From: Fidelibacterota bacterium
GTDB taxonomy: Bacteria > Fidelibacterota > UBA8477 > JABMPR01
DNA length: 64,000 bases
NCBI GenBank assembly: GCA_018650445.1
Contig: JABIFX010000208.1
Location: 1-64,000, forward strand
Reading direction: 5' to 3'
Shown in pieces: positions 1 through 14,555 of the stretch. Every line of letters begins with the position of its first letter. The stretch's first letter is position 1. The notes under the pieces are model-generated. The model worked only from the letters and a program-made list of their open reading frames with translations. It did not search any database and was not told the origin of the DNA. The translations under genes and the position numbers were made by a program.

Positions 1-117
1 CGGCGCAAACGTCGCAACAAGCACGGTTTCCGCGCTCGCATGAAAACGAAGAATGGTCGTAAAGTACTGGCCCGCCGCCGCGCCAAGGGAAGAAAACGCC
101 TCACCGTTTCTGGTTAA
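1..117 (+). CDS. rpmH: 50S ribosomal protein L34 (C-terminal part)
   Basis: The frame starting at base 1 reads [20 protein letters not shown] and continues to VSG and a TAA stop at 115-117. This is the very basic C-terminal 38 residues of L34, a component of the large ribosomal subunit. The 5' end lies outside the window. The gene is the usual first member of the rpmH-rnpA-yidD-yidC cluster. Its last 65 bases also appear to encode the start of rnpA in another frame. Confidence 0.95.
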
Positions 118-3772: not shown

Positions 3773-5656
3773 TTGACTGTTTCACGTGAATCATATGACG
3801 TCATCGTTATTGGTGGCGGTCACGCTGGTATAGAGGCCGCACTCGCTACCAGTAGGCTGGGTAAAAACACCCTACTTATAACCATGGAGACTGCCGCCCT
3901 GGGGCGAGCATCCTGCAATCCAGCCATCGGTGGGCTAGCCAAAGGCCACCTCGTTCGTGAAATCGATGCGCTTGGTGGTGAAATGGCCAAAGCCACGGAC
4001 CATACCGGTATTCAATTTAAGATGTTAAACAGATCTAAAGGTCGCGCCGTCTGGTCACCCCGCGCACAAATTGATAAAAAAGCTTATAGCGCCTACATGG
4101 TGAACACCTGCAAATCTCAGGCTGGCCTTGAGATCTTTGAAGATGAAGCGACTGCAGTCACCGCCAATGAGGCAGGTTCTGTAATTTCAGGCGTTCTAAC
4201 CCGTAGCGGTTCCTCCTTTAAATGTCAGTCGCTTATTTTAACCAATGGCACTTTTCTCAACGGCCTAATACATATCGGGAACAAAAGTTTCTCGGCTGGA
4301 CGAATTGGTGAGTCCGCCAGCGTGGGCATCACGGAGTCTCTTATAGAGCTCGGCTTTAAAACGGGCCGCCTAAAAACAGGCACCCCACCACGCATTAAGC
4401 GGGACAGTATAGATTTTTCTAAAACGACCATACAGGCTGGTGACAAAAACCCCGAGCCTTTTTCTTTTTCTACCAAGAACTTTGACCCACCTAATGAATA
4501 TTGCTACATCACCAACACCAACCAGGAAACTCATCGCATCATTAATGGCGGTTTAGAGTTCTCCCCTCTCTTCACCGGGGTTATTCAGGGCGTTGGTCCG
4601 CGCTACTGCCCATCCATTGAGGATAAAGTGGTTCGGTTTGCTGAAAAAACCTCCCACCAACTCTTTTTAGAGCCAGAGTGGAGCAACGCAGACCAGCTTT
4701 ATGTAAATGGATTCTCGTCTTCCTTGCCAGAAGAGGTTCAACTGAACAGTCTGCGTACCGTGTCGGGATTAGAAAACGTTGAGTTTATTCGTCCAGGGTA
4801 CGCTATTGAATATGATTTTTTCCCACCCTCCCAGCTCAAAGCCACCATGGAGACCAAGCGGGTTAAGGGCTTGTTTTTTGCTGGACAGATCAACGGAACC
4901 TCCGGATATGAAGAGGCTGCAGCGCAAGGGCTAATAGCGGGGATCAATGCTTCCCGCAGTATTGACGGGTCTGATGCTTTTGTATTGGAAAGATCCGAAG
5001 CTTATATCGGCGTACTCATCGATGATCTGATAACTAAAGATACAGACGAGCCTTATCGCATGTTCACATCCAGGGCCGAACACAGGCTCCTTTTGCGTTA
5101 TGACAACGCCCATTTTCGCCTCGCCGAAAAAGGTTTTAAATTGGGCCTTACCGGGCAAACCCTTTATGAGGACGTGGAGAACCAAAAAGCCCTGGCAGTA
5201 AAAACTGAAGCTTTTTTTAACTCAACCTATATCAAATCAGATGTCATTAATGCGATGGTTGAGACACAGGCCACTGTAAAAGAGAGCCAGACCCTGGCTA
5301 ATATTTTAAAACGCCCTGGGGTTTCGGTCGAAGACATACAAAGCCTGTTACCGGACTGGGTGAACGACCTGTCTCCCACCCTTTTAACACTCATAGCAAC
5401 CAACACCAAATACGCTGGCTATATAGAAAGAGAGCGCCTCCAGGTTGAGCGCCTTTCAAAACATCAACAAATGCGCATTCCTGATGCCGTGGATTATTTA
5501 TCCATGCAGGCCATCTCTTTTGAGGCCAGACAAAAGCTTGACAAGATTCGCCCCGAAACTATTGGACGGGCATCCAGAATCAGCGGCGTTACCCCAGCTG
5601 ATGTTTCTTTGTTAATTATTCTTATTAAAAAAAATGTTTCACGTGAAACACACTGA
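3773..5656 (+). CDS. mnmG: tRNA uridine-5-carboxymethylaminomethyl(34) synthesis enzyme MnmG (GidA)
   Basis: FAD-dependent partner of MnmE. The N-terminal dinucleotide-binding motif is IGGGHAGIEAALA, and the family signature follows as SCNPAIGGLAKGHLVREIDA. GTSGYEEAAAQGLIAG and TSRAEHRLLLRYDNA are also canonical. The start is probably TTG 3773, just after the mnmE stop and preceded by GGGAAAA; TTG 3755 is an alternative that would overlap mnmE. The gene ends with TGA and overlaps mfd by 23 bases. Both ends carry a parS-like palindrome that encodes VSRES and VSRET respectively. Confidence 0.97.
   Translation: MTVSRESYDVIVIGGGHAGIEAALATSRLGKNTLLITMETAALGRASCNPAIGGLAKGHLVREIDALGGEMAKATDHTGIQFKMLNRSKGRAVWSPRAQIDKKAYSAYMVNTCKSQAGLEIFEDEATAVTANEAGSVISGVLTRSGSSFKCQSLILTNGTFLNGLIHIGNKSFSAGRIGESASVGITESLIELGFKTGRLKTGTPPRIKRDSIDFSKTTIQAGDKNPEPFSFSTKNFDPPNEYCYITNTNQETHRIINGGLEFSPLFTGVIQGVGPRYCPSIEDKVVRFAEKTSHQLFLEPEWSNADQLYVNGFSSSLPEEVQLNSLRTVSGLENVEFIRPGYAIEYDFFPPSQLKATMETKRVKGLFFAGQINGTSGYEEAAAQGLIAGINASRSIDGSDAFVLERSEAYIGVLIDDLITKDTDEPYRMFTSRAEHRLLLRYDNAHFRLAEKGFKLGLTGQTLYEDVENQKALAVKTEAFFNSTYIKSDVINAMVETQATVKESQTLANILKRPGVSVEDIQSLLPDWVNDLSPTLLTLIATNTKYAGYIERERLQVERLSKHQQMRIPDAVDYLSMQAISFEARQKLDKIRPETIGRASRISGVTPADVSLLIILIKKNVSRETH
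3778..3793. promoter_or_regulatory. parS-like centromere site 1 (ParB binding)
   Basis: The sequence TGTTTCACGTGAATCA differs at one position from the palindrome TGTTTCACGTGAAACA found at the other end of mnmG. The known parS consensus is TGTTNCACGTGAAACA. ParB binds such sites near the origin for chromosome segregation. It lies within the first codons of mnmG. Confidence 0.75.
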
Positions 5657-11368: not shown

Positions 11369-12640
11369 ATGCGTCTTTTTATTCTCGTTCTCACCACCCT
11401 CTTTGCTTTGAATGCCAGTGCCCAACAATTGATTGATGGCGTGGCGGCCATCGTGGGAGAAAAGGCCATTCTCTATTCTGAGGTAGACCAGGTGACTCAG
11501 CTCTTCGCCATGCAGGCGAAATTACCCTCTTACTCTTCTCCAGAAGTCATTCAACAACTCAGAGCACGTGCCCTTGATGAACTCCTCAATCAACAGGTCT
11601 TGTTGGAATATGCCCGCCAGGAAACTATCGAGGTAGAAGATAGAAGCGTGCAAATGCAACTGGATCAATCCTTGGAAAATATAGAAATGCAGTATGGAAG
11701 CCTGAGAAAGGCGGCCGAAGCATTTGGTGTAGACCACTATAAAATTAAATCCTATTACGAGGATCAGATACGTACAAACCTTCTGGTTGAACAGGTTAAA
11801 ATGGAACTTTTCAGCGGTATCAAGGTCAGTCGTCGTGAGGTCGAAGATTTTTATGAGACGTGGCAGGACAGTTTTCCAGCAAAAAACCCCCAGGTAGATT
11901 TTTCCATTCTCTCCATGACAGTTGAAATGAGCGCTGATAAAATGGAAAAACTCCGCTCTCAATTACTCTCCATTAAGGACGATATTACGTCTGGTCGTAT
12001 CAGTTTTGAAGATGCGGCAACCCAATATTCTAAGGATCCAGGATCTGCGGCCAATGGAGGTAGTCTGGGCCTTGTGGGTCGTGGTGTTTTTGTAAAACCT
12101 TTTGAAGATGCTGCGTTCTCGCTTGAGGTGGGTCAAATGAGTGGTGTCATTGAAACCCAGTTTGGCTTGCATCTCTTACGTCTTGATGATAAGCAGGGGG
12201 AGCAGGTCAATATCTCTCATGTATTGCTTATGCCTGTTGCAGATGAGACGGATAAGCAATTTACGTCTGATAAGCTCTCAATAATAAGAGACGATATTCT
12301 GGCTGAAAAGACGACTATCGCGGCACAGGTTGAAATATACGCTACCGATGAATATATGAAGTCACGTAAAGGCCAAATGGGCATGACAGATATTTCTCTA
12401 TTGCCTGAGGATATCCACGAGCTACTGCTCAATATCCCTCTTGAAAGCCTCTCAATGCCCCTTTATAGCTCTGATCAGTTTCATCTTATCATTGTACATC
12501 GACGTCTTGCTGGCGGGAAGGTGAACCTGACTGACCATTGGTTCGATGTTGAAAATATGTCCCTGGAGTATAAAAAACGCGATAGATATCAATCTTGGGT
12601 AGACGATCAGCGAAATCGCATGTATATCCAGATTAAGTAG
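11369..12640 (+). CDS. SurA-like periplasmic chaperone / peptidyl-prolyl isomerase
   Basis: 423 residues with a cleavable signal peptide (MRLFILVLTTLFALNASAQ) and not a lipoprotein. The SurA N-terminal domain begins IDGVAAIVGEKAILYSEVDQ, the classic start of SurA. A parvulin domain covers about 175-275 with YSKDPGSAANGGSLGLV and IETQFGLHLLRLDD. A second isomerase-like region follows (VNISHVLLMPV onward). SurA escorts outer-membrane proteins across the periplasm. It ends the three-gene chaperone run and is followed by a terminator. Confidence 0.88.
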   Translation: MRLFILVLTTLFALNASAQQLIDGVAAIVGEKAILYSEVDQVTQLFAMQAKLPSYSSPEVIQQLRARALDELLNQQVLLEYARQETIEVEDRSVQMQLDQSLENIEMQYGSLRKAAEAFGVDHYKIKSYYEDQIRTNLLVEQVKMELFSGIKVSRREVEDFYETWQDSFPAKNPQVDFSILSMTVEMSADKMEKLRSQLLSIKDDITSGRISFEDAATQYSKDPGSAANGGSLGLVGRGVFVKPFEDAAFSLEVGQMSGVIETQFGLHLLRLDDKQGEQVNISHVLLMPVADETDKQFTSDKLSIIRDDILAEKTTIAAQVEIYATDEYMKSRKGQMGMTDISLLPEDIHELLLNIPLESLSMPLYSSDQFHLIIVHRRLAGGKVNLTDHWFDVENMSLEYKKRDRYQSWVDDQRNRMYIQIK

Positions 12641-12670
12641 CTAATTCTACCCCCCTTATTTTCTTTAATG

Positions 12671-12701
12671 AAAGCCTTACTTTTTTAGTGAGGCTTTTTT
12701 T
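12671..12701 (+). terminator. Rho-independent terminator after the chaperone genes
   Basis: AAAGCCTTAC, a short T/A loop, then GTGAGGCTTTTTTT form a hairpin (one G-U type pair) followed by a T run. It lies 30 bases after the surA-like stop and separates the cluster from the putative origin. Confidence 0.75.
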
Positions 12702-12865
12702 GTCCTTAGCTGTGTACTGCCTCCGCTTTCAATAAAGCGGATGTGTTCATCGTTGATACTCGATAAGTTATAAACAGATAAGGTCTTGCTTTTACACGGG
12801 GGTTGAGTTGTTTTTTAATCACTTAGAGCATTTTATAAAAGTTATACTATCTATTAACAATACAG

Positions 12866-12874
12866 TTATCCACA
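12866..12874 (+). promoter_or_regulatory. DnaA box (perfect consensus)
   Basis: TTATCCACA, identical to the standard DnaA-binding consensus, in the non-coding region proposed as oriC. Confidence 0.75.
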
Positions 12875-13043
12875 TTGACCATGTTTGGATACTTTCTGTA
12901 AGTCATGTTAACAAGGACATGTCTACTACCAACAGATACACACCACTCCACATTCAGGCTGCGCATATCAACACTAAATGTTAGACATAATTGTATCTTT
13001 ATTTTGTTTATTTTATTGAGTTTACAGATAATTTGGCGGATAC

Positions 13044-13082
13044 TTATCAACATTTTTTAATCACTATACTACCACTACTATA
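13044..13082 (+). promoter_or_regulatory. DnaA near-box with adjacent DnaA-trio-like repeats
   Basis: TTATCAACA (13044-13052) is followed by a short T/A spacer and then ACTATACTACCACTACTA, a run of triplets with a central T (CTA type). This corresponds to the 3'-GAT-5' trios on the complementary strand to which DnaA attaches during opening. A second cluster, ATTACTACTA, lies at 13095-13104. An 11-base inverted copy pair (AAAAGTAGTAT 13133-13143 and ATACTACTTTT 13236-13246) follows. Confidence 0.6.
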
Positions 13083-13378
13083 TATATTAAAATATTACTA
13101 CTATAGTATAATACCGACCTTTTGGTCGCAGAAAAAGTAGTATTTTTACATAGACAAGTGTACAGTTGTGCATATAGGATCAGGGAAATAAGATCATCCT
13201 TTGAAAGAATGATTTAAATATCAGTAACAGTTGAGATACTACTTTTACATTATTTATGATCAATTATTTAGTTATTGAGGGTTTTTCTCACGTTTGGAAC
13301 CTCATTTTGGTGAATGGTCCAAATACTCAAGACCCTTGTAATTATAAATCGATTGATTTGAGTAGGAGGTAAATTACC

Positions 13379-13432
13379 TTGCCGATGATGGCAGTAGAAA
13401 ATATTGTCATTATCTTTGACTTGATCCATTAA
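13379..13432 (+). CDS. Possible 17-residue leader ORF upstream of the Na/Pi symporter
   Basis: A strong Shine-Dalgarno AGGAGGT at 13364-13370 precedes TTG 13379 (or ATG 13385/13388), and the frame runs 17 codons to TAA at 13430-13432. It ends 25 bases before the symporter start. The ribosome-binding site is better than that of most genes here, but so short a frame may be chance. Function unknown. Confidence 0.25.
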   Translation: MPMMAVENIVIIFDLIH

Positions 13433-13457
13433 GTATTCATATGTCACGAGGAATATT

Positions 13458-14555
13458 TTGAACCCGGAAACACGCCAAAAGATAATTAAGATATTAACTG
13501 TTATCATCACGATATATCTATTTCTTCTTACAATAAAGCTTCTTGGTCATAGTTTTAAACTATTTGGTAAAGAATTCGCTGAGGCTATGCTTCAAACGAC
13601 TTCAAACCCTTTTACGGGTCTTATCATTGGAATCGTCGCGACCTCTCTTATTCAGAGCTCCTCGACTACGACATCTATAGTTGTAGGTCTTGTGGCAGGG
13701 AGTGTAGTTAATTTAGAAAATGCCATTCCTATTATCATGGGCGCAAATATTGGAACGACCGTCACTAATACTTTGGTATCGCTTGGCCATGTGGGTAGAA
13801 AAGTGGAGTTTAAAAGAGCGTTTGCCGCCGGTGTTGTACATGACTTCTTTAATATTTGTGCAGTTATAGTTTTATTTCCTTTGGAATTAAAATTTCACAT
13901 TATTCAAAAAGTTGCGATTTATTTAAATACGAGTTTTGAAGGTATCGGCGGTATGAAAATGTTTAACCCCCTCAAAGCAATTTTAAATCCAGTTATACAT
14001 TTAGTAGATTCTCTTTTGGTTAATGTGCCTTACAATGAAATAGTGTTAATGATTTTGTCAATCATCGGAATGTTCGCAGCTCTAGCATTACTAATAAAAA
14101 CAATTAGATCTTTGGTTGTTGATAAAATTGAGATAATTATTAATAAGTATCTCTTTAAAAATGACCTTTTAGGAATGACCTGGGGTATGGGAATGACTTT
14201 TATTGTTCAGAGTAGTTCTGTAACAACATCCCTGATAGTACCTCTTGCTGGAGCAGGCATAGTCAGTCTAAGAAAAATGTTCCCCTACACGATGGGAGCT
14301 AATATAGGTACTACTGGTACAGCACTTCTGGCTGCATTGGCTACAGGTAATCCAGTTGCAGTGACTGCCGCTTTTGCACACCTGGCATTTAATATCTTTG
14401 GAATACTTATTTTTTATCCGCTTAAATTTATTCCAATCACTCTGGCAGAAAAAGTGAGCGCTTATGTATCGATATCGAAAAAGAATTTGATCACATTTCT
14501 TTTTCTATATTCAATGATTTACTTTGTACCAATCCTTTTTATAATATTATTTTAA
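13458..14555 (+). CDS. Na+/phosphate symporter family protein
   Basis: Sodium-coupled phosphate uptake is the known role of this family (NptA/PNaS). The 365 residues contain the two inverted-repeat signatures: LIQSSSTTTSIVVGL with MGANIGTTVTNTL, and FIVQSSSVTTSLIVPL with MGANIGTTGTALL. About eight or nine membrane segments are visible. The start is TTG 13458 preceded by CGAGGAAT. The next gene encodes a PhoU-like protein, a common pairing that supports phosphate as substrate. Confidence 0.92.
   Translation: MNPETRQKIIKILTVIITIYLFLLTIKLLGHSFKLFGKEFAEAMLQTTSNPFTGLIIGIVATSLIQSSSTTTSIVVGLVAGSVVNLENAIPIIMGANIGTTVTNTLVSLGHVGRKVEFKRAFAAGVVHDFFNICAVIVLFPLELKFHIIQKVAIYLNTSFEGIGGMKMFNPLKAILNPVIHLVDSLLVNVPYNEIVLMILSIIGMFAALALLIKTIRSLVVDKIEIIINKYLFKNDLLGMTWGMGMTFIVQSSSVTTSLIVPLAGAGIVSLRKMFPYTMGANIGTTGTALLAALATGNPVAVTAAFAHLAFNIFGILIFYPLKFIPITLAEKVSAYVSISKKNLITFLFLYSMIYFVPILFIILF

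Follow-up and report, generated by a model that had tools for sequence, protein, structure and literature searches.

A likely chromosomal replication origin between surA and nptA, away from dnaA and dnaN, in a Neomarinimicrobiota genome

The intergenic gap between surA and nptA (positions 12641–13457, ∼820 bp, with a functional core at about 12768–13130) is very probably the chromosomal oriC of this Neomarinimicrobiota genome from an uncultured ocean bacterium, a reading of the sequence to which we assign a probability of roughly 0.93. The gap holds conserved DnaA boxes and DnaA-trios in order, and its position matches a surA-dnaN site that carries the skew minimum in a closed relative, both of which support the initial annotation's proposal of an origin here. 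The window, meaning the whole stretch of 64,000 nucleotides that was analysed, is the first 64 kb of the 205-kb contig C216, which belongs to a MAG of 3.9 Mb in 273 contigs with an estimated completeness of ∼87%. The surA genes of named relatives are 68–93% identical to that of the window, and nearly all of these relatives are 'Candidatus Neomarinimicrobiota' MAGs. Marinimicrobia/SAR406 is the phylum Fidelibacterota (PMC11652737).

Gene order in the window is [rpmH]-rnpA-yidD-like-yidC-mnmE-mnmG-mfd-two PPIases-surA-[gap]-nptA-phoU, with rpmH and the yidD-like gene assigned by eye. The gene calls bear out the presence of rnpA, yidC, mnmE and mnmG near the candidate, as noted in the initial annotation. 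The two parS sites noted at the same time are also real, one with a mismatch and one perfect; they lie at about −7.4 and −9.3 kb from the candidate oriC, at near-constant offsets that are similar across the genus and also in G036, a closed genome. An Rfam scan gave sub-threshold matches only and no RNA element. The neighbourhood comprises:

1..55, no strand assigned, overlap with the dnaA contig C80 (exact reverse complement of C80:1-55, inside rpmH)
3778..3793, no strand assigned, parS-like site at the mnmG start, 1 mismatch (similar offset in relatives)
5635..5650, no strand assigned, perfect parS site at the mnmG/mfd junction, the end of mnmG (similar offset in relatives)
11369..12640, + strand, surA-type peptidyl-prolyl isomerase (PF00639 and PF09312; synteny), conserved left neighbour of the candidate oriC
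13458..14555, + strand, nptA, Na+/phosphate cotransporter (PF02690; synteny), right neighbour in the window's genus, replacing dnaN

To define conserved elements we aligned the surA-nptA gaps of 11–12 congeners, all closely related MAGs, and called a box conserved when TTATNNACA was found in register with ≤1 mismatch in at least 10 of the 12. The gap is fast-evolving: 15% of its columns are conserved at a level of 11 or more of 12 genomes, and conservation is lowest in the 3′ half, on the nptA side (3% of columns). Conserved blocks within it are, in order, six boxes, CTATACTACCACTACTA, AT-rich DNA, TACTATAGTA, GACC-N4-GGTC and RTGYAY-N4-RTGCAY:

12768..12776, + strand, DnaA box 1, TTATAAACA (matches TTATNNACA in 12/12 congeners)
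12851..12859, + strand, DnaA box 2, CTATTAACA, weak (≤1 mismatch in 11/12 congeners)
12866..12874, + strand, DnaA box 3, TTATCCACA, consensus, highest-affinity type (exact TTATNNACA in 11/12, ≤1 mismatch in 12/12)
12906..12914, − strand, DnaA box 4, TTGTTAACA, reverse orientation (≤1 mismatch in 11/12 congeners)
12965..12973, + strand, DnaA box 5, ATATCAACA (≤1 mismatch in 10/12 congeners)
13044..13052, + strand, DnaA box 6, TTATCAACA, putative anchor of the unwinding module (exact TTATNNACA in 11/12, ≤1 mismatch in 12/12)
13053..13065, + strand, fixed-length spacer, with the ATA trio after 13 nt and the first in-phase CTA after 16 nt
13066..13080, + strand, DnaA-trio tract ATA-CTA-CCA-CTA-CTA, the trios themselves lying on the complementary strand (3′-GAT-5′ type; third unit 3′-GGT-5′)
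13081..13098, no strand assigned, candidate AT-rich unwinding element (about half of columns conserved)
13099..13108, no strand assigned, palindrome TACTATAGTA, closing the AT tract (conserved within the clade of the window)
13116..13127, no strand assigned, palindrome GACC-N4-GGTC, candidate factor site or hairpin (GAC-N5-GGTC in 12/12 congeners, inner bases vary)
13158..13173, no strand assigned, paired half-sites RTGYAY-N4-RTGCAY (every congener matches 9 to 12 of the 12 consensus letters)

The consensus box at 12866 and the near-box at 13044 on which the candidate was originally built are therefore both present, and they belong to a larger array. TTATNNACA has six conserved sites in the gap, as against zero or one for each of its 139 letter permutations (mean 0.09 over all 140), and the window's two contigs, 309 kb together, have their strongest and densest cluster of the motif in this intergenic gap. 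The clustering of the boxes and their conservation across species are not due to chance.

The CTA-type triplets and AT-rich run that the initial annotation placed after the box are likewise there, as CTATACTACCACTACTA at 13064–13080 followed by TATATATTAAAATATTA. Within this 17-bp block the share of columns conserved at the same level (≥11 of 12 genomes) is 71%, versus 15% gap-wide. In 11 of 12 genomes the CTA tract lies 16 nt beyond the last box. Eleven columns of the spacer (13053–13063) were tested and none is conserved, so that the length of the spacer is kept while its letters vary. Positions 13064–13111 are 19% G+C, which places a candidate AT-rich unwinding element beside the boxes. One further proposal, that inverted ACTACT copies at 13133–13143 and 13236–13246 form a symmetrical structure, is not supported by the congener alignment; the copies are not conserved at these positions, and we rejected the symmetry.

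A composite box-plus-trio pattern, which admits CTACCACTACT, was searched in 19 genomes of the genus with the reversed pattern as a control. Ten of the 19 (G013 among them) contain exactly one match, always in the surA-nptA gap, while the reversed pattern matched once in all 19 genomes together. The remaining genomes comprise two with contigs that end inside the gap (G018 and G015), two with variant letters (G005 and G017), two with contigs that end near mnmG (G002 and G006) and three assemblies that contain neither dnaA nor mnmG (G003, G008 and G014). The contigs G018:C99 (L036) and G015:C75 (L040) stop at assembly breaks 310–350 bp past surA, within the candidate origin. We also note that in G016 (L052, G016:C55) the surA-nptA gap is 2.1 kb long and contains an additional ORF that resembles an EAL/HDOD protein, and that surA of this genome aligns in two pieces.

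The search rule for a basal unwinding system (BUS) asks for a box with ≤2 mismatches at 0–16 bp from at least three consecutive NAN trios (adenine in the middle, hence NTN on the strand given here), with 13 being the commonest box-trio spacer (PMC8287927). TTATCAACA lies within this distance, at 13 nt from ATA-CTA and 16 nt from CTA. The window's tract falls short of three consecutive trios at box 13044 by one base, because one trio has a central G where A is expected, as is the case in the window's clade. Uninterrupted CTA/CTT units are found in the tracts of G001, G005 and G016, and these congeners, together with the more distant G026, do contain three consecutive trios. As the window's tract departs from the rule by a single base, we regard the site as a variant of the DnaA-box/DnaA-trio origin and not as a textbook member.

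Downstream, GACC-N4-GGTC lies 36 bp past the trio tract and was not seen in the order-level relative G022. Regarding its possible reading as a hairpin, inspection by eye revealed no compensatory arm changes among congeners. Each half of RTGYAY-N4-RTGCAY is nearly self-palindromic, the halves are spaced 10 bp centre to centre, and the pair mostly begins 42–43 bp after the start of GACC-N4-GGTC.

The position of dnaN in relatives gives further context to the gap. The order surA, box-bearing gap, dnaN is found in G019 (the window's family, another genus), G020–G022 (the same order) and G026, G031 and G036 (another family of the phylum). In G026 the gap contains seven consecutive trios, ATA-TTA-TTA-TTA-GTA-ATT-TTT, located 12 nt from ATATTCACA. 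surA also adjoins dnaN in G023, G024, G025, G027 and G028, and the short gap extracted upstream of dnaN in G028 is without boxes. In the window's genus dnaN-recF is on another contig beside a priA-like gene (L115, G000:C130; priA-like and recF assigned by eye). Within 500 bp upstream of dnaN most genomes of the genus have no box-like site, with a single one in G011 and in G006, and we therefore rejected the current dnaN locus of the genus as the origin. The classic bacterial order is mnmG-rpmH-dnaA-oriC-dnaN. An inversion of the block from mnmG to dnaA could have converted this order to surA-oriC-dnaN, with dnaA moved off while oriC kept dnaN, and a later move of dnaN-recF in the window's genus would then have left oriC between surA and nptA, so that it lost both classic neighbours.

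Skew in closed relatives, computed on stretches of their sequence, points to or near the corresponding surA-dnaN site. In the closed genome G036 (2,788,509 bp, 46% G+C as sampled) the cumulative GC-skew minimum, taken in 250-bp steps, is at +0.15 kb from the trio tract, tied with +1.9 kb, and about 13–15 kb from dnaA, which itself lies about 13 kb off. Raw skew sampled along this genome is positive between 0.3 and 1.26 Mb and, beyond 1.38 Mb, mostly negative; one half of the chromosome is mostly positive and the other mostly negative. In the closed genome G069 surA-dnaN and dnaA are 91 kb apart, and the distance to the minimum within 300 kb is 20 kb for the former and 72 kb for the latter. The minima in G036 and G069 therefore argue that the origin stays with surA and not with dnaA. 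The origin region of this closed relative is rearranged in another respect as well: dnaA and yidC lie about 80 kb apart (G069:C1 433856-527269).

The window's own contigs show too weak a skew for the origin to be located by it. We fitted GC3 and AT3 skew breakpoints in these contigs and in G009, G012 and G017. GC3 is uninformative in the genus and raw skew minima are scattered. By strand-corrected AT3 the surA-nptA gap ranks 1st to 8th of 69–246 breakpoints, and in G012 the dnaA gap ranks 1st. We rejected these breakpoints as a locator in the genus, as they are too weak to separate sites 13 kb apart.

The 55-base match between the start of the window and contig C80 looks like an assembly overlap, in which case the contigs would join head-to-head, dnaA<- ->rpmH, with the two genes a few hundred bp apart; this junction is intact on single contigs in congeners. 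Such a join, by which the MAG could be extended, puts dnaA (L001 445-1794, contig C80) ∼13 kb from the candidate and makes the dnaA-rpmH intergenic region (C80 1-444) directly comparable. That this canonical region is the working origin, with the surA-nptA cluster secondary, is a proposition with some points in its favour: the head-to-head pair is the classic location, two boxes arranged in tandem just upstream of dnaA are conserved in 10 of 10 genomes, and GC3 fits slightly favour the site in three genomes. Against this, the dnaA-rpmH gap has two conserved boxes only, no more than permuted motifs give there, and in the congener alignment it shows no trio tract and a middle that is not conserved. 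The two boxes at the dnaA start fit autoregulation of dnaA, and the skew minimum of closed relatives is at or nearer surA-dnaN. The initial annotation had named a skew minimum and a DnaA-box cluster elsewhere, for instance beside dnaA, with none at the candidate, as what would overturn its proposal; the dnaA side has two conserved boxes and no trios, and the proposal survives this test. We judge an origin at the dnaA-rpmH gap to be highly improbable.

The surA-nptA array could alternatively titrate DnaA in the manner of datA or DARS, or control nptA, without being an origin. E. coli has box clusters outside oriC, and the gap also holds the upstream region of nptA. Against such roles stand trios at a fixed distance, an AT-rich element, a dnaN-side counterpart in other families and a skew minimum at that counterpart, as well as the weak conservation of the half of the gap nearest nptA, the lowest in the gap. 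We regard a titrating or regulatory cluster as an extremely remote prospect. The two 9-mers TTATCCACA and TTATCAACA taken alone are weak evidence and near chance: TTATCMACA occurs five times in the 64 kb versus 1.55 expected, and 4 of 100 shuffles reach five. We nevertheless give almost no credence to a chance resemblance in AT-rich DNA, which is refuted by the permutation test and by cross-species conservation.

If the surA-nptA gap is the origin, its mode of action can be predicted from the B. subtilis system (PMC8287927, PMC10721633). The array of about six boxes would be bound by DnaA, and a DnaA filament would grow from the box at 13044 over the fixed-length spacer onto the CTA-type trios of one strand. 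The filament would then open 13066–13110, with the adjacent AT-rich stretch, for helicase loading.

In B. subtilis DnaA, Asn187 and Arg202 contact and capture the trio bases, although these residues are stated not to be universal; strand opening in vitro is reduced when the central A of trio 1 is changed to G, and cells with G in trios 1–3 grow more slowly and initiate less than those with C (PMC10721633). The window's DnaA has Met187 and Ser202 at the equivalent positions and thus lacks this pair. Among the phylum members examined, position 187 is Leu, Met, Val or Arg and position 202 is Ser, Thr, Ala, Val or Gly, with Leu and Ser being commonest. The solved Thermotoga and Aquifex DnaA proteins have N/R and Q/R at 187/202. 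Six genomes combine Met187 with CCA; of those with Leu187, three have CTA and one has CAG. This association is complete where both sites are available and may reflect a single evolutionary event. A tentative and rather unlikely extension is that DnaA of this phylum reads trios by a different contact scheme and that Met187 allowed or accompanies the fixed G-centred trio. Under this scheme a hydrophobic residue 187 and a small residue 202 could not hydrogen-bond, as in B. subtilis, with the central adenine and the neighbouring guanine, relatives with Leu187 would keep CTA-CTA-CTA or a degenerate tract, and GACC-N4-GGTC and RTGYAY-N4-RTGCAY would bind lineage-specific origin factors. Bacteroidota DnaA also has hydrophobic residues at these positions, so the unusual residues may extend beyond the phylum.

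In the open-access (PMC) literature we found no described origin for this phylum, and subscription papers or DoriC predictions could list some. The present site would fix a likely origin for a large, mostly uncultured marine phylum. Origin finders keyed to dnaA or dnaN would search the wrong place in the window's genus, and the origin position is needed for coverage-slope estimates of growth rate. The natural variants of DnaA and trios can moreover be used to test the base-capture model.

With its DnaA boxes, trios and AT-rich DNA the site has a variant architecture of the familiar DnaA-box/DnaA-trio type, at a location away from dnaA and dnaN. It resembles the B. subtilis BUS, with its boxes 6/7 and DnaA-trios (PMC8287927, PMC10721633), in having an anchor box in TTATCCACA orientation, a 13–16 bp spacer, CTA-type repeats with the complement 3′-GAT-5′ followed by AT-rich DNA, and a dnaN-side site in sister families. 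Unlike that system, the window's site is beside neither dnaA nor, in this genus, dnaN; it includes a 3′-GGT-5′ trio and has one clear box only at the trio edge, and DnaA here carries Met/Leu and Ser in place of Asn187 and Arg202. E. coli oriC, located between mnmG and mioC, is similarly displaced from dnaA with mnmG nearby, whereas the displacement here is ∼13 kb with surA as the neighbour and the trio tract is recognisable; the E. coli BUS score is reported to be relatively weak (PMC8287927). Boxes at the dnaA start together with a separate unwinding site also recall the bipartite origins of B. subtilis and Helicobacter pylori, which have boxes on both sides of dnaA, but the two clusters here are 13 kb apart, we found nothing that supports looping between them, and the dnaA-side cluster is minimal.
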